A DNA stretch of 64,000 nucleotides from Propionivibrio dicarboxylicus (GTDB lineage Bacteria; Pseudomonadota; Gammaproteobacteria; Burkholderiales; Rhodocyclaceae), in NCBI RefSeq assembly GCF_900099695.1, contig NZ_FNCY01000002.1, forward strand, positions 1 to 64,000, in the 5' to 3' direction. The position numbers and the translations under genes are program-made. Under the pieces are notes generated by a model, which was not told where the DNA came from, did no database searches, and saw only the letters and a program-made list of their open reading frames with translations. Within the stretch, counting starts at the first letter, position 1, and each line of letters begins with the position of its first letter. Below, one piece after another: positions 41,123-52,686 of the stretch.

Positions 41123-42199
41123 TTACTTCGGAATGCTGCCTTCGACGCCTTCGACGTAGAAATTCATCTTCTTCAACTCTGCGTCGGAATAGACCTTGCC
41201 AGCCGCCAGGAATTCCTTGCCCGACTGATCCTTGAGCGGCCCGGTGAACGGATGCAGTTTGCCGGCCTTGATGCCATCGCGGCGCTCTTCAGCCACCTTC
41301 TTCACGTCAGCGGGAACGGCTGTGCCGAAGTTGTCGATATTGACCGCGCCATCCTTGACGCCCCACCACAGGTCGCCGGTCTTCCACGTTCCGGCCTGGA
41401 CTTCTGCCGCCGTTTTCTTGTAGATCACGCCCCAGTTGAGGATCGATGCGGCCAGATGCGCCTTGCCACCGAACTTGGTCATGTCCGAATCCCAGCCGAA
41501 GGCCATGACGCCTTTTTCCTGGGCGGTCTGGACAACTGCCGGCGAATCGGTGTTCTGCATCAGCACGTCGCAGCCCTGCGAAATCAGCGCCAATGCCGCT
41601 TCACGCTCCTTGCCCGGATCGAACCATGCGTTCACCCAGATGACGCGGGTCGTCACCGCCGGATTGACGCTGCGCGCGCCGAGCGTGAAGGCGTTGATGT
41701 TGCGGATGACTTCAGGAATCGGAATCGACGCGACGATGCCGAGCTTGTTGCCCTTGCTCATCTTGCCGGCGACGACGCCGAGCATGTACGAGCCTTCATA
41801 GGTGCGGACGTCATAGACGCCGAGGTTCGGTGCCGTCTTGTAGCCGGTGGCGTGCATGAAGACGGTATTGGGGAAGGCCTTGGCGACCTTGACCATCTGG
41901 TTCATGTAACCGAAGGACGTGCCGAACACGACCTTGTGGCCCTTCTGAGCAAGATCGCGGAAGACGCGTTCGGCATCGGCCGTCTCCGGCACGTTCTCGA
42001 CGAAGGTGGTCTTGACCTTGCCGGCCGACTCGGTTTCGAGCATCTTCCGGCCGACGTCGTGCGAATACGTCCAGCCATGATCGCCGGTCGGGCCGATATA
42101 GACGAAGCCCGCCTTCAAGGGCTCGGCGGCATGAGCCAGGGTAAAGCAGGAAACGGCGGCAAACGCCGTCATCAGCGTTTTTAGACGAGATAGCGCCAT
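41123..42199 (-). CDS. BMP-family (Med-type) periplasmic nucleoside-binding protein
   Basis: A 358-residue binding protein with a signal peptide (LMTAFAAVSCFTLAHA, cleavage near residue 25). The BMP pattern is KAGFVYIGPTGDHGWTYSHD (~28-47), VVFGTSFGYMNQMVKVAKAFPN, GSYMLGVVAGKMSKGNKLGIV and VMAFGWDSDMTKFGG. BMP proteins bind nucleosides or purines and serve importers such as the one at 35.5-39.1 kb. Here the gene stands apart from it and on the opposite strand. AAGGAG lies before the ATG. Confidence 0.92.
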   Translation of the reverse strand: MALSRLKTLMTAFAAVSCFTLAHAAEPLKAGFVYIGPTGDHGWTYSHDVGRKMLETESAGKVKTTFVENVPETADAERVFRDLAQKGHKVVFGTSFGYMNQMVKVAKAFPNTVFMHATGYKTAPNLGVYDVRTYEGSYMLGVVAGKMSKGNKLGIVASIPIPEVIRNINAFTLGARSVNPAVTTRVIWVNAWFDPGKEREAALALISQGCDVLMQNTDSPAVVQTAQEKGVMAFGWDSDMTKFGGKAHLAASILNWGVIYKKTAAEVQAGTWKTGDLWWGVKDGAVNIDNFGTAVPADVKKVAEERRDGIKAGKLHPFTGPLKDQSGKEFLAAGKVYSDAELKKMNFYVEGVEGSIPK

Positions 42200-42319
42200 G
42201 CTGGAAACTCCTTGTATGCGGAAAACAGAGGGGGAAAAACCAAAACCGCATTGTCCGGAAGTTTGATGCGCTTGTACACCTCGGTTTACTTCATTCGCCG
42301 CGTACGGGAAAAGATCGGG

Positions 42320-43600
42320 TCATCGGGCGCAAAGAGCGCCGAACACAGCCTCGCCGGCAGCCAGCAGACGCTCGTCTTCACCGTGGCGCGCCACCAGTTG
42401 CACACCCAGAGGCAGGCCGCGCGGACCGACGCCGAACGGCAGGTGCAGACAGGGTACGCCGAGCAGGGTCCACAACCGGCCGCAGAGCGGATCGCCGGTT
42501 GCTGCGAGACCCTCGGGCGCCTCACCAAGCGCCGACAGGGTCATCAGCACGTCGGCATCACCGAGGAAGGTGTCAAACTGCGCGCGGCAACGCTGGGCGA
42601 GTTGCTGGTCGGCGACATAGCGATCGGGTGTCACCGACTCCGCCGACGCGATCAACTGCCGGAGCGGCGTGCTCAGCTGTGTCGCATGGCAGGCCACCTC
42701 ATGGCTCAAGGCTTCCGCGGCTTCGACCGCCATGATCTCGGTCTGGGCGGCATACAAGCCCTCGAACACGCCGGGAAGGTCGTGCTCGACAACGGTCGCG
42801 CCCTTTTGTGCCAAGCGTGCGGCGGCCGCCTCGAGCGTCGCCAACGCCGCCGGTTCGGCCCGCTCGGCCGCCGGAGTGCGGCACAGGACGATGCGCGGCA
42901 ATCCCGCCGCGGCCGGAATGCGCCCGGCACGCCCCGACAAGACACCGGCAAACAGCGCGGCATCGGCAACATCGCGGGCGAACACACCGATCGTATCGAG
43001 CGATTCCGACAAGGGTTTCACCCCGGCCCGGCAGATCCGCCCGAAACTCGGCTTGAAACCGACGACACCGCAATAGGCGGCGGGCCGGATCACCGACGCG
43101 GCCGTCTGCGTTCCATAGGCAAGCGGCACCATGCCATCGGCCACTGCCGCCGCCGAACCGCTCGACGACCCGCCCGGCGTCGCGCGGGGATCATGCGGAT
43201 TCGCCGTTTTCCCGGGGCAGTACGTGGCAAATTCCGTCGTCACCGTCTTGCCGAGCACCAACGCCCCCGCCGCACGCGCACGCGCGACACAGGCGGCATC
43301 CCAGGCCGGACGATGGCCTGCATAGATCGACGAACCATAGGCGGTCGGATACTGGACCGTGTCGATCAGATCCTTGACGCCCAGAGGCACGCCGGCCAAG
43401 GCCCCCCTAACACCGGCGGCATCGAGCCGACGCGCCTCGGCAAGCGCGTCGTCGACGTTGAGCCAAGTCCAGGCGCCCACCGTCGGCTCGCGCTCGGCAA
43501 TGCGCTCAAGACACGCACGTACCACGGCCTCGACCGTCGTCGTCCGCTGGGCGATGCGCTCGACAATCTGCCGGGCGCTCATTGGCATGAACGTCGTCAT
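42320..43600 (-). CDS. Amidase signature family protein
   Basis: A 426-residue Ser-cisSer-Lys amidase. GVPLGVKDLIDT holds the catalytic Lys (~73). TPGGSSSGSAAAVADG (~140-155) is the amidase signature. YGTQTAASVIRPAAYCGVVGFKPSFG holds the nucleophile Ser (~164). It hydrolyses an amide or carbamoyl bond of unknown substrate. The open frame reaches 43852, but ATG 43600 with GGAG and AAGG upstream is the likely start. It lies 40 bp after hydE on the same strand, so it may be the last gene of the hydrogenase operon or may serve the purine cluster. Confidence 0.88.
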   Translation of the reverse strand: MTTFMPMSARQIVERIAQRTTTVEAVVRACLERIAEREPTVGAWTWLNVDDALAEARRLDAAGVRGALAGVPLGVKDLIDTVQYPTAYGSSIYAGHRPAWDAACVARARAAGALVLGKTVTTEFATYCPGKTANPHDPRATPGGSSSGSAAAVADGMVPLAYGTQTAASVIRPAAYCGVVGFKPSFGRICRAGVKPLSESLDTIGVFARDVADAALFAGVLSGRAGRIPAAAGLPRIVLCRTPAAERAEPAALATLEAAAARLAQKGATVVEHDLPGVFEGLYAAQTEIMAVEAAEALSHEVACHATQLSTPLRQLIASAESVTPDRYVADQQLAQRCRAQFDTFLGDADVLMTLSALGEAPEGLAATGDPLCGRLWTLLGVPCLHLPFGVGPRGLPLGVQLVARHGEDERLLAAGEAVFGALCAR

Positions 43601-43640
43601 TGCCTTGTCTCCGTATTCGTCTCGCTCAGAAGGGAAATAC

Positions 43641-44777
43641 TCAAACACGCCGCGTGGCGTCGCCCCACTGATCGCGCAGGATACGCCGCCCGACCGAAGT
43701 AATCCGCCCTTCCAGACAGGCGGCACATTGTCCGGCACTGTCGTCGAGACAGGGTTTTCCGTCGTAGAGCGTGTATTCGCGCCGCACATGCAACGGCGTC
43801 GCCTGCGGCATGATGACATTGGCACCATAGCGCAAGCCCTGCTCGCGTCCATCGGGCGCCAGCGTCTGCAAGGCCGTCGTCGCGGCGATGTTGATCGACG
43901 GCAACAGCAGGCGGGTTGCAGCGATCATGCGCAAGGCGAGCGTCATGCGCGCTGGCACGTCGCGCACCGACGCCGAGTGCATCGGCGTCTGCTCGTGCGG
44001 GATGTACGGTCCCATGCCGATCATGTCGGCGCCGATGTCGCGAAAGAAGAACAGATCGTCGACAAGATCGTCGACCGTTTGTCCCGGCAAGCCGATCATG
44101 ACGCCCGTCCCGACGCGGTAACCGATCGCCTTCAGCGTTTTCAGGCAGTCGACGCGCGACGCGTAACGCTGTTCGGCCGGATGCAGCGCTGCGAACAATC
44201 GCGGCGACGAGGTCTCCATGCGCAGGAGATAACGATGCGCACCGGCCTCGTACCATTCGGCATAGGTTTCCGGCGATTGCTCGCCGACGCACAGCGTGAT
44301 GCCGACGCCTTCGCGCAGCGCGTCCGAACGCGTCGCCGCCTTGATCGCGCGCACAGCCTCGGTAACGAAAGCCGCGAACTTCTCGTCGCGCCGTTCGCCC
44401 GACTGAAGCACGACCGAACCATAACCCTGTTCGCCGCACCAGCGCGCCGTCTCGACAATCTCATCAAGCGCGAGCGTGTAGCGCGTCGGCGCCCGGTTGC
44501 TGCGGCGGATGCCACAGTAATAGCAGTCGAGCGTGCAGCGATTGGAGAACTCGATCAACCCACGCAGCCGCACCGTATCGCCGCAGTGCGTGAGCAAGGC
44601 CTGTTCGGCCGCCTGCCGGATGACCTCGACCTCATCGGCGAGATCCGTCGCCAGGATGCGCCGCAAGGTCTCGCGATCGGGCACACCCGATTGCAACCGG
44701 GCCACCATCGCCTGCGCCTCGACGCCGGGCGCGGTCACCGCCGTCTTGCGCACGAACTGGACCGTCGCCGTCGTCAT
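43641..44777 (-). CDS. hydE: [FeFe]-hydrogenase H-cluster radical SAM maturase HydE
   Basis: A 378-residue radical SAM protein that acts on the HydG-made iron-cyanide-carbonyl unit in building the [2Fe] subcluster. FSNRCTLDCYYCGIRR holds the CxxxCxxC cluster site (C81, C85, C88). GYGSVVLQSGERR and GVMIGLPGQTVDDLVDDLFFF are barrel segments typical of HydE. The C-terminal CLDDSAGQCAAC (C343, C351, C354) matches the optional second-cluster pattern C-x7-C-x2-C. MTTATVQF at 44777 overlaps the hydF stop by 4 nt (ATGA); the longer frame upstream is not used. Confidence 0.93.
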   Translation of the reverse strand: MTTATVQFVRKTAVTAPGVEAQAMVARLQSGVPDRETLRRILATDLADEVEVIRQAAEQALLTHCGDTVRLRGLIEFSNRCTLDCYYCGIRRSNRAPTRYTLALDEIVETARWCGEQGYGSVVLQSGERRDEKFAAFVTEAVRAIKAATRSDALREGVGITLCVGEQSPETYAEWYEAGAHRYLLRMETSSPRLFAALHPAEQRYASRVDCLKTLKAIGYRVGTGVMIGLPGQTVDDLVDDLFFFRDIGADMIGMGPYIPHEQTPMHSASVRDVPARMTLALRMIAATRLLLPSINIAATTALQTLAPDGREQGLRYGANVIMPQATPLHVRREYTLYDGKPCLDDSAGQCAACLEGRITSVGRRILRDQWGDATRRV

Positions 44778-46015
44778 CGGGCGCTCCCGGCCATGCCACG
44801 CCGATACGCATCGAGGGCAGCGGGGAAACATTCGAGCGCACGCTCGATGACGCCCTGCGAGACCGAAATGGCCATTCCGTAATTGGTCATCGGCACGCCC
44901 TGTTGCGCCGCGCGATATTGCCGCACGAGGATCTGCTTGCGCGTCACTGTACAGCCGCCGCACTGCACGATCAGCGCGTACGAACTCAGGTCCTCGGGAA
45001 AGTCCTTGCCAGAACGCACTTCGATGTCGAGATTGCCGCCAGCATACTGACGCAACCAGCGCGGAATCTTTACGCGGCCGATATCGTCGGCGAGCGCGTG
45101 GTGCGAACAGGCCTCGGCGATCAGCACCTTGTCGCCCGGTTTCAGGCGCGAGATGGCACCGGCGCCTTCGGCCAGGCCGATCATGTCGCCCTTGAAGCGC
45201 GCCATCAGGATCGAGAACGTCGTCATGCGGATGTCGGGCGGCGTATCGGCCGAAACCTTGTTCACCACCTGCGAATCGCAGACGACAAGCCGTGGCTTGT
45301 CGCTCATGCGAGCGAGCGCCGCGGCGAGTTCGCGCTCCTTGACCATCAGACCGACGGCATCGCTGTCGAGAATGTCGCGCATCGTCTGCACCTGCGGCAG
45401 GATCAGGCGACCTTTCGGCGCGCCGAGATCGATCGGCACGACAAGCACGACGAGATCGCCGGGGCCGATCAGATCGCCGACCAGGCGCGGATCTTCGATG
45501 CTGCTCTCCGGCGCCTGCCGGAACAGCGCTTCCTTGACCCGGTCGATGCCGCGCCCGGTAGCCGCCGAAATCGAAACGGTCTCGATCGCCTCGGCCGCGA
45601 GTTGCGCCAACTGCTCGGCCGGCGGCTCGCCAAGATCGCTCTTGTTGAAAACGATGGCAAACGGCGTATTGGCGGCGCGCAGCGTCGCCATCAAATCGCG
45701 TTCGGTCGCGGTCATTCCACCGGCATCGACAACGACGAGCGCGACATCGACGCGTTCCAGCACCTGGCGCGTCTTCTCGATACGCAGCGCGCCAAGATCG
45801 CCTTCGTCATCGAGACCGGCCGTATCGATGAAGACGACGGGGCCGAGCGGCGCCAGCTCGAAGGTCTTCTCGACCGGGTCGGTCGTCGTGCCGGGCTGGT
45901 CGGAAACGATGGACACCGACTGGCCGATCAGCGCATTCATCAGCGTCGACTTGCCGCTGTTACGACGGCCAAATATGCCGATGTGCAAGCGCAGGCCCTT
46001 GGGGGTTTCCAGCAT
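44774..46015 (-). CDS. hydF: [FeFe]-hydrogenase maturation GTPase HydF
   Basis: A 413-residue scaffold and GTPase that carries the [2Fe] precursor to HydA. The GTPase domain has GRRNSGKS (16-23), SDQPGTTTDP, FIDTAGLDDEG and FNKSD. A dimerisation domain and the C-terminal cluster domain follow. The latter has EACSHHALADD (CxH) and IVQCGGCTVTRKQI (CxxC). The His that often precedes CxxC is Gln here, leaving three Cys and the CxH His as ligands. MLETPKGLRLHIGIFG at 46015 follows the aspA stop by 2 nt. Confidence 0.93.
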   Translation of the reverse strand: MLETPKGLRLHIGIFGRRNSGKSTLMNALIGQSVSIVSDQPGTTTDPVEKTFELAPLGPVVFIDTAGLDDEGDLGALRIEKTRQVLERVDVALVVVDAGGMTATERDLMATLRAANTPFAIVFNKSDLGEPPAEQLAQLAAEAIETVSISAATGRGIDRVKEALFRQAPESSIEDPRLVGDLIGPGDLVVLVVPIDLGAPKGRLILPQVQTMRDILDSDAVGLMVKERELAAALARMSDKPRLVVCDSQVVNKVSADTPPDIRMTTFSILMARFKGDMIGLAEGAGAISRLKPGDKVLIAEACSHHALADDIGRVKIPRWLRQYAGGNLDIEVRSGKDFPEDLSSYALIVQCGGCTVTRKQILVRQYRAAQQGVPMTNYGMAISVSQGVIERALECFPAALDAYRRGMAGSAR

Positions 46016-46017
46016 GT

Positions 46018-47424
46018 TCAATCCTTCAGTCTCTGATTCGGCGGATAGCCCAGCGCCGTCATCGCATCGACCGAGAGCAGACGATCGAGCACCGGCTCGC
46101 CGAGCAGGCCGCGGGCAAGGACGACGGCGCGGATCGTCTGTCCGGTAGCTTGCGCTTCCTTGGCGACCTCGGCCGCGAGATCGTAACCCAGCGCCGGTAC
46201 CAGCGCCGTCACCTGCGCGTGCGAGTGTTCGAGTAGATCGACACAACGTGCCGCGTCGGCCGTCATGCCGGCGATACAACGCTCGCGGAAGAGCGTGTCG
46301 GCGCGTTCAAGCAGGCTCAGATTGCCGAGCAAGGCGTGCGCCACGAGTGGCAGGAACGCATTCAGTTCGAGTTGGCCGGACTGGGCCGCCGCAGTCACCG
46401 CCGCATCCTGCGCGATCACCTGCAGCGCCGCCTGTCCGACGGCCTCGCAAATAACCGGATTGACCTTGCCCGGCATGACACTCGACCCGACCTGCATCGC
46501 CGGCAGGCGCAGCTCGCCGAAACCGGCATGCGGCCCGGAGGCCAGCAGGCGCAGGTCGGAAGAAATCTTGAAGAGATTGACCGCATGCGCCTTCAGAATA
46601 CCGGACACCTCGACAAGCGCATCGGCATTCTGCGTCGCATCGACAAGATTTTCGGCGCGGGCGAGGTTCATCCGCGTCAGCTCGCGCAGCGTCTCGGTCG
46701 CCCGGAAAATATAATCGCGCGGCGCCGTCAGCCCGGTGCCAATCGCCGTGCCGCCAAGATTGACGACACGGATGCGCTCCTCGCACTTGAACACGCGCCA
46801 GCGGTCGCGCCCGAAGGCTTCGGCCCAGGCTGAACACTCGGCACCCAGCGTCATCGGACAGGCGTCCTGCAACTGCGTGCGGCCGACCTTGAGGATCGCC
46901 GCGAATTCGCTTTCCTTCGCCTGAAACGCTGTCTGCAAGGCCGCGATTGCCGGCTCCAGCCGCTTCAACCCTTCGATGACCGCAATCTTCAAGGCGGTCG
47001 GGAAGACATCGTTGGTCGACTGGTGCAGGTTCACATGATGCAGCGGATGCACGCGGACGTAGCGGCCGCGTCGCCCGCCGAGCAATTCTTCGGCACGATT
47101 GGCGATCACCTCGTTGACGTTCATGTTCAGCGACGTACCGGCGCCGCCCTGCAGTGCGTCGACGATCACCGCCTCGCGGTGTTGGCCATCGGCCAGTTCG
47201 TTCGCCGCCTGGGCGATCGCCTGCGCCACCTCGGCATCGAGATAGCCGAGCGCCGCATTGGTGCGGGCGCAGGCCAGTTTGACGAGCGCGACGGCGCGAA
47301 TCAGCCCTGAATGACAGGGCTGTCCGCTCAGGGAAAAGTTCTCGCGCGCCCGGGCCGTGTGAATGCCGTACAGCGCGTCCTGCGGCAACTCGAACGGCCC
47401 CAGCGAATCGGTTTCCGTCCGCAT
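46018..47424 (-). CDS. aspA: Aspartate ammonia-lyase
   Basis: A 468-residue fumarase/aspartase-fold enzyme. LPQDALYGIHTARARENF near the start, VHPLHHVNLHQSTNDVFPTA (~132) and the signature GSSVMPGKVNPV (~312) fit AspA rather than fumarase, which has GSSIMPGKVNPTQ. It splits aspartate to fumarate and ammonia. GGGAGG precedes the ATG at 47424. It lies between hydG (16-nt gap) and hydF (2-nt gap), so it is expressed with the hydrogenase maturases. Fumarate made here could feed anaerobic respiration. Confidence 0.92.
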   Translation of the reverse strand: MRTETDSLGPFELPQDALYGIHTARARENFSLSGQPCHSGLIRAVALVKLACARTNAALGYLDAEVAQAIAQAANELADGQHREAVIVDALQGGAGTSLNMNVNEVIANRAEELLGGRRGRYVRVHPLHHVNLHQSTNDVFPTALKIAVIEGLKRLEPAIAALQTAFQAKESEFAAILKVGRTQLQDACPMTLGAECSAWAEAFGRDRWRVFKCEERIRVVNLGGTAIGTGLTAPRDYIFRATETLRELTRMNLARAENLVDATQNADALVEVSGILKAHAVNLFKISSDLRLLASGPHAGFGELRLPAMQVGSSVMPGKVNPVICEAVGQAALQVIAQDAAVTAAAQSGQLELNAFLPLVAHALLGNLSLLERADTLFRERCIAGMTADAARCVDLLEHSHAQVTALVPALGYDLAAEVAKEAQATGQTIRAVVLARGLLGEPVLDRLLSVDAMTALGYPPNQRLKD

Positions 47425-47440: not shown

Positions 47441-48850
47441 TCAGCAGAAAACGTCCCGCTTGCCGGCCTTGATGTGCGACAACATCTTTTCGGCATTGCG
47501 TCGCGCTTTGGTACCCATCTTGTCGAGTTCGCAATCGATCGCCGCCTCACCGGCGCACCGCGTCTCTTCCTTGGCGTAATCGATCAGATATTCCTGGAAG
47601 GTCGTCACGGCGTTCGGATCGCACTTGAGTTTGATGAGACCCGGCTTGGCCAGATCCATGAAATCCTGACCGGTTCGTCCGAGACGATAACAGGCGGTGC
47701 AGAACGACGGGATAAAGCCCGACTCGGCCAGGTCGGCGATGACCTCTTCGAGCGAACGATGGTCGCCAAGCTGGAACTGCCCGGCCGCATGCGCGTTCGC
47801 ATCCTCGCCCTCGCTGTAACCACCCGGATTGGTGCGGCTGCCGGCCGAAATCTGCGACACGCCAAGCGCATAGCACTCGCGCCGGATCGCCGTCGACTCG
47901 CGCGTCGACAGGATGATGCCGGTATAGGGAACGGCGAGCCGCAGAATGGCGATGATCTTCTTGAAGTCGGCATCGCTGACCGCGGCCGGCGGCGCCATCG
48001 AGAGATCGGAACCGTCCGCCGGCTCCATGCGCGGCACGCTGATCGTATGACAGCCGACACCGAACACATCTTCGAGATGCTGGATGTGCTGCATCATGCT
48101 GAGAATCTCGAACCGCCAGTCGTGCAGCCCGAACAGCACGCCCATGCCGACGTCGTCGATCCCGGCCTGCATGGCCCGGTCGAACGCAGTCACGCGCCAA
48201 TCGAAATCGCGTTTCTTGCCGGAAAGATGCACCGCCGCATAAGTCTCGCGGTGGTAGGTTTCCTGGAAAAGCTGGTAGGTGCCGATCGAGGCGTCCTTGA
48301 GCAACTTGAACTCGTCGACCGTCAAGGGCGCCAGATTGACGTTGAGTCGGCGGATATGGCCATGCTTCTCGGTCACGTCATAGACGGCACGAATGGCGTC
48401 GAGTACGTAGTTGAACCCGCCCTTCGCCGCCGAATAGCCCTCGCCAGCCACCATCAGCAGGCGCTTGTGCCCCTGCCGCACGAGTTCGAGCGTCTCGCGG
48501 CGGATGCCGTCCATGTCGAGCGCCGTCCGCACCAGTCCCTTGTTGGTCGACCGGAAAGCACAATAGGTGCAATCGTTACCGCAAACGTTGGAAATATACA
48601 GCGGCGCGAACAGGACCATGCGATGGCCATAAATCTGTTCCTTGACCGTTCGCGCCGTTTCGAACAAGGCCTCGGCCAGATCGGGAGAACCGATCTGGCA
48701 TAGCGCCGCCACGTCGGCAGCATCGAGCCCCTTGAGCTCGCGGGCCTTTGCCAGCACCTCGCGAATTTTTCCTTCGTCGCACTTGGCAGTTTGAAGCAGA
48801 TTCCCGACTTCACTTGCCACCAACCAATCCCGAGCCGGGAACTCCTTCAT
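47441..48850 (-). CDS. hydG: [FeFe]-hydrogenase H-cluster radical SAM maturase HydG
   Basis: A 469-residue tyrosine lyase that makes the CO and CN ligands of the H-cluster. ISNVCGNDCTYCAFR holds the radical SAM cluster (C90, C94, C97). The C-terminal CTACYR...KLKC (C384, C387, C410) keeps the exact C-x2-C-x22-C spacing of the HydG auxiliary cluster, which sets it apart from ThiH. The start MKEFPARDWL at 48850 is 1 nt after the hydA stop. Confidence 0.95.
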   Translation of the reverse strand: MKEFPARDWLVASEVGNLLQTAKCDEGKIREVLAKARELKGLDAADVAALCQIGSPDLAEALFETARTVKEQIYGHRMVLFAPLYISNVCGNDCTYCAFRSTNKGLVRTALDMDGIRRETLELVRQGHKRLLMVAGEGYSAAKGGFNYVLDAIRAVYDVTEKHGHIRRLNVNLAPLTVDEFKLLKDASIGTYQLFQETYHRETYAAVHLSGKKRDFDWRVTAFDRAMQAGIDDVGMGVLFGLHDWRFEILSMMQHIQHLEDVFGVGCHTISVPRMEPADGSDLSMAPPAAVSDADFKKIIAILRLAVPYTGIILSTRESTAIRRECYALGVSQISAGSRTNPGGYSEGEDANAHAAGQFQLGDHRSLEEVIADLAESGFIPSFCTACYRLGRTGQDFMDLAKPGLIKLKCDPNAVTTFQEYLIDYAKEETRCAGEAAIDCELDKMGTKARRNAEKMLSHIKAGKRDVFC

Positions 48851-48851
48851 A

Positions 48852-50651
48852 TCAACCCCTGCCTTGTTTGCTGAGTTCGCTCCAGGCGGCATCGATATCG
48901 GCATCGATTCCGCAGAGGCGAGCGGTGTACTTCGTGTGCAGCATGTGATGCGCTTTCTCCGAATGCGGCGCTTCAAGATACTCGGCATACAGCCGCTTGA
49001 CCTGGCTGTTGTTGTGCGACTGCCGTACCTTGGTCTTGCGATCGATGTTGAAGATCGTCTCGCGGCGCTTCATGGCATATGGAATATACGCCTTCTTCGA
49101 ACGCAAGGTACCGCCGCCATCGACGCAGCCACCCGGGCAAGCCATGATCTCGATGAAATCGAAATCGGCCCTGCCGCTCAGCACCGCCTCGACCAGCTCG
49201 CGCGTGCCCTTGAGACCGTGACACATCGCCACCTTGATCTCGCCGTACTGCCCGCCGAGATTGACGTTGGCCGAGCGGACGTTCTCGAAGCCGCGCAGCT
49301 GCGACACTTCGATATGCTCAAGCTCCTTGCCATTGACGACGTAATACATCGTCCGCACGGCGGCTTCCATGACACCGCCGGTGGTGCCGAAGATCGCCCC
49401 GGCACCCGAGTACTCGCTCATGAACGGATCGTCATAGAAGGACGGTTCCAGTTGCTTGAGATCGATCCCTTCGCGCCGCAGGAGCCGTGCGAATTCACGC
49501 ATGGTCAGCACGACATCGACATCGGGAACGCCGTGCGTCGCCAGTTCGCCGCGCGCCGCCTCGCCCTTCTTCGCCGTGCAGGGCATGATCGAGATCACGC
49601 GCATCTTGGCCGGATCGATGCCGCGCTTCTCGGCCAGATAGGTCTTGATCACCTTGCCCATCACCTGCTGCGGCGAACGCGTGCTCGACAGCAGCGGCAG
49701 GACATCGGGATAGTGCTTCTCGGCGAAATTGATCCACGCCGGACAGCAGGAGGTGAACACCGGGCGCTTCTTCTCGGCCAGTTTGCCGAGCAGTTCGGTG
49801 CCCTCTTCCATGATGACGACGTCGGCGGCGAAGTTGGTGTCGAGGATGATATCCGCGCCCATCTTGCGCATCGCGGCGATGATCTGCCCTTCGACGTTCG
49901 TCCCCGGCGGCAAGCCGAATTCCTCGCCGAAGCCGACACGAATAGCCGGCGCGGTCTGGAAGACGGTGACGATATCGGGATCGGCCAGGTAATCGAGCAC
50001 GTCCTGCGTCTGGTCGCGTTCGGCCAAGGCGCCGGTCGGACAGACCATCACGCACTGACCGCAATTGACACAGGGCGACACATCGACCGCGCCACCTTTC
50101 AGGCGTATGCCCGCGGTATTGCCCCAGCCGGTCAACTCAAGCGCGTCGACGTTCTGCACTTTGCGGCAGACGGCGACGCAGCGCTGGCAGCGGATGCAGC
50201 GACTGCGGTCATAGACGATCGGCTGCTTGCCGTGATCCGGTTCGAGATTCTCCCAACCCTCCGTGTAGTGGAAGCGCACCTGCTTCAAGCCAACTGCATT
50301 GGCCGTCGGCAACAACTCGCAGTTACCGGTGCGCGGACAGGAAGCGCAGTCCTGATGGTGATCGGCCATGATCATTTCCATCTGGAGTTGCCGCATTTCC
50401 TGCACCTTCGGCGTACGCGTCCGCACCTGCCAGCCTTCGACCATCGCCGTATCGCAGGCGGTCAGATGCTTGGGTTCCGTATCGTCGTCCGACTCGACCT
50501 CGACCAGGCAGACCCGGCAGGTCCCCGGTGCGTGGTCGATGTCATTCAGTTCGCACAGCGTCGGAATGTAAATGTCGTTGCGTCGCGCCACGTCGAGGAT
50601 GGTCTCATTGGCCTCGAAAGCGACTTCTCTTCCATTGATAAAGGCTTTCAT
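48852..50651 (-). CDS. hydA: [FeFe]-hydrogenase catalytic subunit, group A modular type
   Basis: A 599-residue cytosolic hydrogenase. The N-terminal relay has a [2Fe-2S] domain (C33, C45, C48, C66), a His-Cys3 cluster (H98, C102, C105, C111) and two [4Fe-4S] sites (C152/155/158/162 and C194/197/200/204). The H-domain has all three motifs: TSCCPAW (300-306; C302 proton-transfer, C303 ligand), MPCTAKKGE (357-365) and EIMACPGGCVDGGG (501-514; C505, C509). The small subunit-like tail includes HTKYTARL. No transmembrane or Tat signal is present. It follows the NuoF/GltD-like gene by 4 nt and precedes hydG by 1 nt. Confidence 0.96.
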   Translation of the reverse strand: MKAFINGREVAFEANETILDVARRNDIYIPTLCELNDIDHAPGTCRVCLVEVESDDDTEPKHLTACDTAMVEGWQVRTRTPKVQEMRQLQMEMIMADHHQDCASCPRTGNCELLPTANAVGLKQVRFHYTEGWENLEPDHGKQPIVYDRSRCIRCQRCVAVCRKVQNVDALELTGWGNTAGIRLKGGAVDVSPCVNCGQCVMVCPTGALAERDQTQDVLDYLADPDIVTVFQTAPAIRVGFGEEFGLPPGTNVEGQIIAAMRKMGADIILDTNFAADVVIMEEGTELLGKLAEKKRPVFTSCCPAWINFAEKHYPDVLPLLSSTRSPQQVMGKVIKTYLAEKRGIDPAKMRVISIMPCTAKKGEAARGELATHGVPDVDVVLTMREFARLLRREGIDLKQLEPSFYDDPFMSEYSGAGAIFGTTGGVMEAAVRTMYYVVNGKELEHIEVSQLRGFENVRSANVNLGGQYGEIKVAMCHGLKGTRELVEAVLSGRADFDFIEIMACPGGCVDGGGTLRSKKAYIPYAMKRRETIFNIDRKTKVRQSHNNSQVKRLYAEYLEAPHSEKAHHMLHTKYTARLCGIDADIDAAWSELSKQGRG

Positions 50652-50655
50652 TCGA

Positions 50656-52686
50656 TCACTCCGCGAGGACGGTTTCGTTATTGGAAATCAACGGTTCGCG
50701 TGGCAGATGTTTCTCGGTCACCACCGAATAGAGCCGGTAACAGCGCAGGCACCGGCTGGCTTCCTCATAGGCACTCTGTTTGGAAATGACCTGATCGACC
50801 TCGTCAAAGTTCTTGACGCGCTCGGCCGCATCGAGCTCCGGCATGACCGCACGGTCTTTGTGCGGCGGCGCAACCTCGAGACACTCGTCGGCCAGCAGCT
50901 TGTTTTTCGACAGCAGATTCTGGATTCTCCGCTCAGGCCGCACATAGACGTCGCCGCTGAGGAGGAAATCGCGAATGCTTGCCGCCGCCCGTTCGCCCTG
51001 GTCCAGCGCATGCACCAGGGTCAATGGCCCGAGCACGCAGTCGCCACCGGCGAACACACCCTTGCGCGTCGTCTCAAGCGTATCGGCATTGACGACGATA
51101 CAGTTCCAGCGATCGAGCTCGATGCCCTCGCCGGGCTTCACCACGTTGCGCTCGACCTGCTGGCCGATTGCCGCGACGACGAGATCGCAGGGCATCGTGT
51201 ACATCGAATCGGGCACCGGTTCGATATTCCAGCGGCCTTTTTCGTCGCGCCCCTTGGTCTGCATTTCGACCATTTCCAGCGCGGTGACGGTGTTGTTTTC
51301 GACCATCAAGCCGGTCGGCGTCGTCAGGAAGTGGAAGATGACGCCCTCATGCTGCGCGGCGATCACTTCCTCGCGCTCTGCCGGCATGTCTTCCTCGGTC
51401 CGACGATAGACGAGATGCACCGACTTGGCACCCAGTCGCAGCGCCGAACGTACGCAGTCCATGGCGACGTTGCCGCCGCCGACGACGACCACGTCGCCTT
51501 TGACCTCGAACGGAACGTCGTGCTCGACCCGCTGATGGACCTTGAGCAGGAAATCGACGCCGGTGATGTAGCGATTCAATCCCGGATACTCGTTCTTGAT
51601 GCCGAAGCGCGTGCCCTGGCTGGCGCCGTACGCGAGGAACACCGCGTCGTAGCCCTTGCCGAGCAGTTCATCGACGGTGAAATTCTCGCCGAGCACCTTG
51701 CTGTAGAAGAAGTTTCCGCCCAACTGGCGAATGATGTCCTCGCTCTCGGCCTTGAGCACGTCCTTGGGCAGGCGGTAGCTCGGAATACCGACCGAAGCCA
51801 TGCCGCCGGCGGCGCGCTGCGCGTCGAACACGTCGACCTTGATGCCGCCGAGCAGCAGTTTATAGGCGCAGGTAATGCCGGCAGGACCGGCGCCGATGAT
51901 GGCGACGCGCTTGTCATGTTGTACCGGACTCGGCTGGAAATGCAGGCGATTATTCAGAATCGCCTGATCCGCCGCATAGCGCTTCAGCATGCGGATTCCG
52001 ACCGGCCCTTCGGCCTCCTGGCGCCGACACGCCGATTCGCAGAAGCGCACGCAGACACGTCCGCAGGTCGCCGCCATCGGATACTTGTCGAGAATCACCC
52101 CGAGCGCATAGTCGAACTTGCCGCCCTTCACCCCGTCGATATACTTGGGCACATCGATCTTCGACGGACAGGCTTCGACGCAGGGTGCCGTCGTATAGAC
52201 GAAACTGTGTTGAAAGACGGCCTGGGCTGGCGTCAGTGGTTTGAATTCATCACGGAAATGTTCGAGTGCGTCGAGCAGGCTGCGCGCACAGGACTGGCCC
52301 ATACCGCAGAGCGACGTATCGGTGACCTGACGCGCCAGTTCGGCGATGTCGTCGAGCACGCCCGGATCGGCCTGATTGGCAGCGACTTCGCGCAGCAGGT
52401 CGCGCATCCGCTGGGTACCGACTCGACACGGCGTACAGCGTCCGCAGGACTCTTTTGCCGCTTGTGCCATATAAGCACGAAAAGCTTCGACCAAACTGGT
52501 TTCGCGATCGAAAACCATGAAGCCCCGGTCGGCGATGAACGCCTTGGTCGGGTTATGCGGCGCAAAATCTTCGAGACCTTCCAACACCGGGGGCGGCATG
52601 CCCTGCGGCGCGTTTCGGAAATCGTGCACCTTCCCATCCCAGATACCATATATAGAAGTACTCACCACGTCCCCCTGAGAACACAT
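50656..52686 (-). CDS. NuoF-4Fe4S/GltD-type flavoprotein fusion, hydrogenase electron partner
   Basis: A fusion of about 676 residues. Residues 78-150 are the NuoF cluster-N3 domain (ESCGRCTPCRVG with C81, C84, C87 and C127, spacing C-x2-C-x2-C-x39-C). Residues 165-240 are the GltD iron-sulfur domain (CVEACPSKIDV, CGRVCVRFCESACRR). Residues 260-600 are the GltD FAD/NADPH core (IIGAGPAG 263-270, VVVGGGNVAMDCV ~400, GVFAGGDC). The C-terminus adds CLRC (646-649). NuoF's own FMN/NADH domain is absent. It probably links NAD(P)H to HydA. The start is unsure: ATG 52686 was chosen, GTG 52668 or 52665 are alternatives, and the frame is open to 52824. Confidence 0.85.
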   Translation of the reverse strand: MCSQGDVVSTSIYGIWDGKVHDFRNAPQGMPPPVLEGLEDFAPHNPTKAFIADRGFMVFDRETSLVEAFRAYMAQAAKESCGRCTPCRVGTQRMRDLLREVAANQADPGVLDDIAELARQVTDTSLCGMGQSCARSLLDALEHFRDEFKPLTPAQAVFQHSFVYTTAPCVEACPSKIDVPKYIDGVKGGKFDYALGVILDKYPMAATCGRVCVRFCESACRRQEAEGPVGIRMLKRYAADQAILNNRLHFQPSPVQHDKRVAIIGAGPAGITCAYKLLLGGIKVDVFDAQRAAGGMASVGIPSYRLPKDVLKAESEDIIRQLGGNFFYSKVLGENFTVDELLGKGYDAVFLAYGASQGTRFGIKNEYPGLNRYITGVDFLLKVHQRVEHDVPFEVKGDVVVVGGGNVAMDCVRSALRLGAKSVHLVYRRTEEDMPAEREEVIAAQHEGVIFHFLTTPTGLMVENNTVTALEMVEMQTKGRDEKGRWNIEPVPDSMYTMPCDLVVAAIGQQVERNVVKPGEGIELDRWNCIVVNADTLETTRKGVFAGGDCVLGPLTLVHALDQGERAAASIRDFLLSGDVYVRPERRIQNLLSKNKLLADECLEVAPPHKDRAVMPELDAAERVKNFDEVDQVISKQSAYEEASRCLRCYRLYSVVTEKHLPREPLISNNETVLAE

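Follow-up and report, generated by a model that had tools for sequence, protein, structure and literature searches.

The function of group A2 [FeFe]-hydrogenases is described as unresolved in a survey of the rumen (PMC6776011), and a survey of the gut counts them among the enzymes still to be characterized (PMC12578642). In HydDB, the group carries the label 'glutamate synthase-linked', its tentative role names NAD, and its criterion is a GltD-type but not a NuoF domain in the protein encoded immediately downstream. Here, we analysed the first 64,000 nucleotides of contig NZ_FNCY01000002.1 of Propionivibrio dicarboxylicus (the window), in which a fusion protein with NuoF-like and GltD-like parts (FUS) is encoded on the minus strand beside a group A hydrogenase, HydA. 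We propose that FUS is probably an SfrB-type NADPH diaphorase, which would form a two-subunit complex with HydA and catalyze H2 + NADP+ <-> NADPH + H+ without electron bifurcation, as judged from its sequence and from analogy with described enzymes.

Several described systems are close to this locus. In the 2012 genome paper of Pelobacter carbinolicus, the SfrB-like Pcar_2503, encoded beside HndD1 (Pcar_2502), was proposed as its NADPH-oxidizing partner, and it was further suggested that electrons of NADH and ferredoxin reach the hydrogenases by way of Nfn and NADPH (PMC3543383). In Moorella, sfrB2 is reported to encode the 76-kDa beta subunit of a purified NADPH-dependent formate dehydrogenase (PMC13040438). 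In the Stn enzyme, K170 of StnC ligates the cluster proximal to the flavin adenine dinucleotide (FAD) in one state, and it was concluded that this FAD does not bifurcate; in NfnB, the ligand at that position is a glutamate thought to be important for the low potential (PMC10482914). StnC keeps five of the eight cysteines of the module (PMC7483475); we equate StnC with PDB chain 8oh5_C, judging by the length of the chain and the range of its GltD part. The bifurcating Bfu members have an invariant BfuBC core, with flavin mononucleotide (FMN) in BfuB and six clusters, and homologues without B2-B5 were described as non-bifurcating (Schut et al., PMC9304861). Among the literature matches listed, outside which most subscription papers lie, there was no purified SfrB/GltD-HydA enzyme.

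Domain organization of the fusion protein

The reverse-strand frame at 50656-52686 is open, as had been observed in an earlier reading of this DNA made without database searches (the sequence-only reading). It has two in-frame starts, ATG 52686, which gives 676 aa, and GTG 52665. The GTG is more likely to be the start, because 'AGGGGG' lies just 5' of it and because an in-frame stop immediately precedes the equivalent valine in three related loci (L009, L010, and L011). FUS then covers 50656..52665 (minus strand) and has 669 aa and a mass of 73.8 kDa. Residues are numbered from GTG 52665, 7 below the 676-aa numbering of the sequence-only reading, unless the latter is indicated.

In a Pfam scan, FUS (676-aa numbering) matched PF10589 NADH_4Fe-4S at 68-149 (1.3e-25), PF14691 Fer4_20 at 166-243 (1e-23), and PF07992 Pyr_redox_2 at 260-564 (1.6e-30). 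The first match is the NuoF-type N3 [4Fe-4S] domain, residues 61-142 (52240..52485, minus strand), with C74, C77, C80, and C120 (C81, C84, C87, and C127 in the 676-aa numbering). These four cysteines were invariant in 26/26 rows of an alignment composed of the window, 24 loci with the FUS-HydA pair, and L050, a locus from a same-genus genome; row starts were trimmed approximately by script, and L051, L052, and L053 were excluded, since the neighbour there is a short HoxU/NuoG-like protein and not a full HydA. The second match, residues 159-236 (51958..52191, minus strand), contains most of the GltD/DPD two-cluster domain, with C162, C166, C201, C205, C209, and C213. The third, residues 253-557 (50995..51909, minus strand), comprises the Rossmann domains for FAD and NAD(P)H, with the motifs GAGPAG, GGGNVAMD, and VYRR; the YRR after the second Rossmann motif is common to PDB chains 5jca_L (NfnL) and 8oh5_C.

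The same scan of FUS gave no match to PF01512 (the NuoF FMN domain), SLBB, or PF01257 (the thioredoxin-like [2Fe-2S] domain), and a scan of the same kind found all of them in the longer relative at L050, which served as a positive control. Therefore, the sequence-only reading was right that the N3 domain of NuoF is kept, that its FMN domain is lost, and that a GltD-type FAD/NADP(H) module is fused to N3. The approximately 38 residues ahead of the N3 domain (30-67, 676-aa numbering) are a NuoF/HydB remnant too: in that numbering, chain 8oh5_B aligns with residues 30-149 and HydB 7q4v_B with 40-149, and FUS has a partial NuoF match (TIGR01959, 8e-19). The N3 motif occurs only once across the six frames of the window. 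Selenocysteine was considered and rejected; the stops flagged within the match in five relatives were all placed just upstream of the start by translation.

The main Fer4_20 match of FUS spans only profile positions 29-109 of 113. When the last 90 residues were searched alone, they matched profile positions 1-31 (E 1.3e-5), and the isolated C-terminal segments of the relatives at L002 (6.2e-5, positions 1-32) and in Collinsella aerofaciens (2.4e-4, positions 2-28) behaved similarly. Judged by these matches, the two-cluster domain of FUS is circularly permuted, since its C terminus supplies the profile start that the main match lacks; residues 616-646 (50728..50820, minus strand; PF14691 profile 1-31) are the displaced first part, in which C639 and C642 replace the usual N-terminal pair. 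In NfnL (5jca_L) and in the GltD and NfnB-like proteins of the same genome, the two-cluster domain starts with an RCxxC segment. With HMMER, FUS residues 603-643 aligned to residues 6-46 of 5jca_L at an i-E of 0.082, and the same C-terminal alignment to 4ylf_B reached only an i-E of 18; these chain alignments alone would be weak, and the permutation is deduced from the Fer4_20 match of the isolated C terminus. PDB chains 8oh5_C, 9bov_A, and 9n5u_A align without a break through to the C-terminal CxxC of FUS. All eight cysteines of the GltD module were invariant (26/26 rows), and C639 and C642 probably bind one of the two clusters. The C-terminal CxxC had earlier been taken as an extra motif; it is better described as the start of the GltD cluster domain, relocated to the C terminus as in StnC-like chains.

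A lysine in place of the NfnB glutamate

Counted along the 8oh5_C alignment, StnC K170, with its ligand role known from StnC (PMC10482914), corresponds to K228 of FUS (51982..51984, minus strand). K228 was present in all 26 rows and also in the Collinsella protein, and glutamate occupies this position in the NfnB-like protein and the GltD of the same genome. By comparison with StnC and NfnB, no other observation speaks as clearly against a bifurcating FAD in FUS as this replacement of glutamate by lysine.

FUS thus agrees with the StnC-type module in the lysine at the K170 position, a putative ligand, and in the CxxC at the C-terminal end of the module. It differs from it in that the StnC module lies within a NuoG-like polypeptide; FUS has the N3 domain instead. 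The glutamate ligand and the NfnS partner that characterize NfnB/NfnL are both absent from the locus, as are the HydB FMN core and HydC that characterize the bifurcating HydABC/Bfu enzymes (A3): no HydB, HydC, or NfnS gene was found among the open reading frames of the hyd operon. On these grounds, together with the lysine, we no longer follow the sequence-only reading in its suggestion of a possibly bifurcating enzyme. Another NuoF acting as a hidden partner was also rejected; PF01512 was matched four times in the genome, on contigs C29, C25, C19, and C27, and not on C28, the contig of the window. By eye only, the C19 match lies in an apparent complex I operon and the C27 match in another cluster.

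In the light of the published StnC and NfnB work, the Lys/Glu position may be a cheap sequence marker that separates non-bifurcating from bifurcating GltD modules, the comparison here being confined to the proteins named.

Conserved pairing of FUS and HydA

The minus-strand gene order is fusion-hydA-hydG-aspA-hydF-hydE, with the FUS gene first. The gaps range from 1 to 16 bases, with 4 nt between FUS and HydA, and hydF and hydE overlap; the genes from the fusion to hydE are presumably co-transcribed. HydA (48852..50651, minus strand; 599 aa) has NuoG-type N-terminal clusters by family models and is a group A catalytic subunit (TIGR02512, 498.3 over a cut-off of 405.95). Against the model for NADH-dependent group A6 (NF040763, cut-off 765), it scored 698; the HydA of L050, beside an FMN-containing partner, passed (894), and those of L028 (676) and Collinsella (760), which like the HydA of the window adjoin partners lacking the FMN domain, did not. 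Measured against the A2 criterion of HydDB, the partner of HydA lies upstream and HydG downstream, and the partner has a GltD-like part together with the partial NuoF match.

FUS adjoins HydA in 24/24 fetched related loci that carry FUS. The pair was found in 15 of 28 genomes of the same genus and, at E <= 1e-120, in 11 of 399 genomes of an order-wide sample (families f1, f20, and f51). A phylum-wide sample at the same threshold returned the own genome only (1/398), but a relative as remote as the Collinsella protein (5e-83) would have escaped detection at this threshold. No FUS relatives were found on viral contigs. Since C. aerofaciens (Actinomycetota; L082, a record labelled as plasmid) has a FUS relative beside a group A HydA, the pairing is not confined to Proteobacteria. 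Moreover, the distances in the FUS and HydA trees were correlated (Mantel r = 0.955, 27 rows, none of 2000 permutations as high), and a second run without L050 and Collinsella gave an r of 0.956 (25 rows). The adjacency, the 4-nt gap, and the tree correlation support the earlier proposal that FUS is the partner of HydA.

A second FUS-like frame stands directly upstream of the fusion gene at L045:2578-4236 (G003:C53) and L046:6369-8027 (G002:C69). These frames are distant from FUS, with 34% identity over 385 residues (L045) and 32% over 483 (L046). At L026:1632-4928 (G299:C258), HydE and the fusion occupy a single 1099-codon frame, and they are separate frames in its close relative L027; the L026 frame is either a real fusion or an assembly frameshift.

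Longer relatives containing FMN

The protein beside HydA at L050 has 1050 aa and consists of thioredoxin-like, FMN, SLBB, and N3 domains followed by the GltD-like module. In it, the GltD-like module occupies the place of the two further [4Fe-4S] sites reported for HydB, which suggests that the L050 enzyme has an NADP(H) site in addition to an NAD(H) site. At L050:3498-8966 (G021:C25), a NuoE-like protein (by eye), the 1050-aa fusion, and a second HydA were seen. L051 and L052 (genomes G018 and G002) have a long FMN-containing fusion beside the short HoxU/NuoG-like protein by Pfam, and L053 (G012) is alike by BLAST only; [NiFe]-hydrogenase-like subunits were seen by eye near L051. Most simply, FUS may be viewed as a headless version of the long FMN-containing fusion, in which N3 was kept as an adaptor.

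Maturases of the operon and in the relatives

The host genome (4.5 Mb, 98.6% complete) has its maturases in the same operon, all on the minus strand: HydG (47441..48850; TIGR03955, 510.8 over 312.15), HydF (44774..46015; TIGR03918, 558.3 over 325.55), and HydE (43641..44777; TIGR03956, 330.6 over 254.6). Amid them lies an aspA-type ammonia-lyase gene (46018..47424, minus strand; NF008909, 623 over 510), which scored 501 against the stricter TIGR00839 aspA model, below its cut-off of 681. Ammonia-lyases adjoining hyd genes have been linked to the nitrogen of the dithiomethylamine (DTMA) ligand (PMC11736057). After hydE, an amidase and a BMP-family substrate-binding protein are encoded on the same strand (41123-43852).

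HydG exceeded its cut-off in 13 of the 20 pair-bearing genomes searched, a search that also held G018, which lacks the pair and is not among the 20; in five other pair-bearing genomes (L036, L042, L043, L044, and L045), HydG lies beside the pair. HydF and HydE were each over the cut-off in 21 of 25 pair-bearing genomes in the family search. None of the three maturases was detected in G019, G024, and G011 (L039, L040, and L041; 92-95% complete), which keep the pair and are sisters in both the FUS and HydA trees, nor in G010 (92% complete). G014, the sister of G010 (100%), and the sisters G281 and G369 (99%) have HydE and HydF and no HydG over the cut-off; activation of approximately 1% has been reported with HydE and HydF in the absence of HydG (PMC9431212).

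The H-cluster motifs of HydA are intact in the genomes without a detected HydG. Furthermore, the dN/dS of the H-domain was 0.04-0.08 in the group of G019, G024, and G011, inside the 0-0.18 range of seven maturase-bearing pairs (the pair L029/L030 was saturated and gave no ratio), so that the H-domain is under purifying selection in these three genomes. Incomplete assemblies may explain the undetected maturases. There is some chance, albeit a small one, that the standard maturases are dispensable for the SfrB-HydA pair in some lineages; the H-cluster would then come from an unknown source, or HydA would have switched to an NADPH-linked reaction that does not involve hydrogen. A parallel is the Desulfitobacterium hafniense strain with the SfrB-HydA composite ACL20074, which is reported to lack maturation enzymes (PMC9888536).

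Glutamate synthase and Nfn in the genome

A PF01645 search of the genome found a full-length gltB on contig C15, with its own gltD next in line, and a weak, partial second match (2.4e-6) on C33. No PF01645 match was found on the contig of the window, C28. The check for a nearby gltB that the sequence-only reading had called for was thus negative, and the link to glutamate synthase that gives A2 its name is absent from the locus. Since gltB has its own gltD on C15, the glutamate synthase label does not fit the enzyme of the window.

On contig C22, NfnA-like (PF10418) and NfnB-like proteins are encoded side by side. At L081:3121-8756 (G000:C22), this pair is followed by apparent 2-oxoacid:ferredoxin oxidoreductase subunits, as judged by eye. 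At L080:4081-6573 (G000:C34), an 831-aa fusion contains a pyruvate:ferredoxin oxidoreductase domain (PF01558), a GltD-like module, and Fer4 domains.

Published in-cell potentials are -370 to -380 mV for NADPH and -280 mV for NADH. From these values, the equilibrium pH2 was calculated to be 3.3-7.1 kPa with NADPH (-370/-380 mV), compared with approximately 3 Pa with NADH (-280 mV).

Proposed function and alternatives

In the proposed enzyme, electrons would pass from NADPH to FAD and on to the two [4Fe-4S] clusters of the GltD-like module, a pair that the C-terminal CxxC would complete and for which K228 is perhaps a ligand. They would then run through N3 to the NuoG-type [2Fe-2S] and [4Fe-4S] clusters of HydA and to the H-cluster. 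N3 may have been retained as the part by which a NuoF-type subunit attaches to a NuoG-type one. With cellular NADPH near -370 mV, H2 could be formed to a pressure of a few kPa with no need of ferredoxin. From NADH and ferredoxin, the separate NfnAB-like pair could generate NADPH for FUS-HydA, and Nfn and FUS-HydA could then do in two steps what the bifurcating HydABC does in one. The sequence-only reading had held a two-protein NADPH/H2 enzyme to be a reasonable hypothesis, and the domain layout, the conserved residues, and the published SfrB precedents lend support to it.

Several points weigh against this proposal. The NADPH preference of FUS is deduced from a motif and from analogy, and the name 'SfrB-type' was taken from published naming. 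The eight invariant cysteines suffice for two all-Cys clusters, so that K228 need not be a ligand. R298 (StnC R239, NfnB R201) is found in bifurcating and non-bifurcating proteins alike and does not tell the two kinds apart. The Collinsella HydA misses the NADH-dependent model by a narrow gap (760 vs 765). The tree correlation and the adjacency are also expected from simple co-inheritance. An AlphaFold2 model of FUS from a 4-row alignment reached a pLDDT of 40 and a pTM of 0.31, and was discarded and not used. Finally, the maturase-less G019, G024, and G011 with their FUS-HydA pairs are hard to fit with a plain hydrogenase function there.

It is unlikely that the carrier is NADH and that the complex is thus an ordinary NADH hydrogenase whose diaphorase is unusual. 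The tentative role of A2 in HydDB speaks for it in naming NAD; however, the YRR following the second Rossmann motif is common to NADPH enzymes, SfrB-type subunits have been reported with NADPH (PMC3543383, PMC13040438), and the HydA of the window stays below the cut-off of the NADH-dependent model.

We consider it quite unlikely that the true partner is a ferredoxin or a different subunit bound to FUS-HydA and that the pyridine-nucleotide site serves as a side exit. HydA keeps the accessory clusters of ferredoxin-linked hydrogenases such as CpI, and a gene for a Fer4 protein precedes the Collinsella pair, but no ferredoxin gene was seen among the open reading frames of the operon.

It is very unlikely that the GltD-like FAD bifurcates as in NfnB and that the enzyme couples NADPH, ferredoxin, and H2. 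The module is NfnL-like and R298 is conserved, and with eight invariant cysteines K228 may have a role other than that of a ligand; nevertheless, the NfnB glutamate is replaced by K228 in every row, the operon has no NfnS, HydB, or HydC gene, and the arginine is also present in the non-bifurcating StnC (PMC10482914).

That the enzyme feeds glutamate synthase, or that FUS is the GltD of a GltB, can hardly be maintained despite the resemblance of FUS to GltD and the A2 label, since gltB is directly followed by its own gltD on C15, no gltB lies beside FUS, and the own GltD has neither N3 nor the permuted cluster domain.

With the FMN-free, non-bifurcating NADPH:H2 enzyme proposed here, 'glutamate synthase-linked' is recast as a testable claim. 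If it is true, H2 is produced or consumed at the NADPH level in these bacteria, and Nfn and FUS-HydA could share between them the task of a bifurcating hydrogenase.

Comparison with known systems

HydABC/Bfu shares with the window enzyme a HydA with a NuoG-type N terminus and an N3-type cluster as link; the window enzyme lacks their FMN core, HydC, and the further HydB clusters. StnC resembles FUS in its GltD-like domain with CxxC at the C-terminal end, in the lysine at the proximal-cluster position, and in serving as an FAD/NADPH entry point from which electrons move on to a Nuo-type chain, as is proposed for FUS. However, the GltD of StnC lies within a NuoG-like protein and feeds the bifurcating StnAB core, and FUS is fused to N3 and stands beside HydA.

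The Collinsella protein at L082, a 610-aa NAD(P)-binding protein, has N3, Fer4_20, Pyr_redox_2, and the C-terminal CxxC, and is likewise encoded beside HydA. It is 36% identical to FUS over residues 59-642, and the HydA proteins are 39% identical; no maturase was among the 13 annotated features of its 17.7-kb stretch, whose gene table is incomplete. In D. hafniense, an SfrB-like module is joined to HydA in ACL20074, and an FMN-type subunit is absent from its surroundings; unlike the window pair, ACL20074 is one polypeptide, with the SfrB-like part inserted after the first 110 HydA residues (PMC9888536). In P. carbinolicus, HndD1 is a HydA-type subunit adjoining the SfrB-like NADPH oxidoreductase Pcar_2503, and aspA lies between hydG and hydF as in the window, but hydF and hydG belong to the hndD2 cluster, and the two pairs are likened by their description (PMC3543383). 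FUS, a putative SfrB-type protein, has a mass of 73.8 kDa, compared with 76 kDa for the Moorella subunit, and contains the expected domains; the corresponding activity is predicted. FUS-HydA would be a further case of the SfrB and HydA pairing already proposed in a few other anaerobes.

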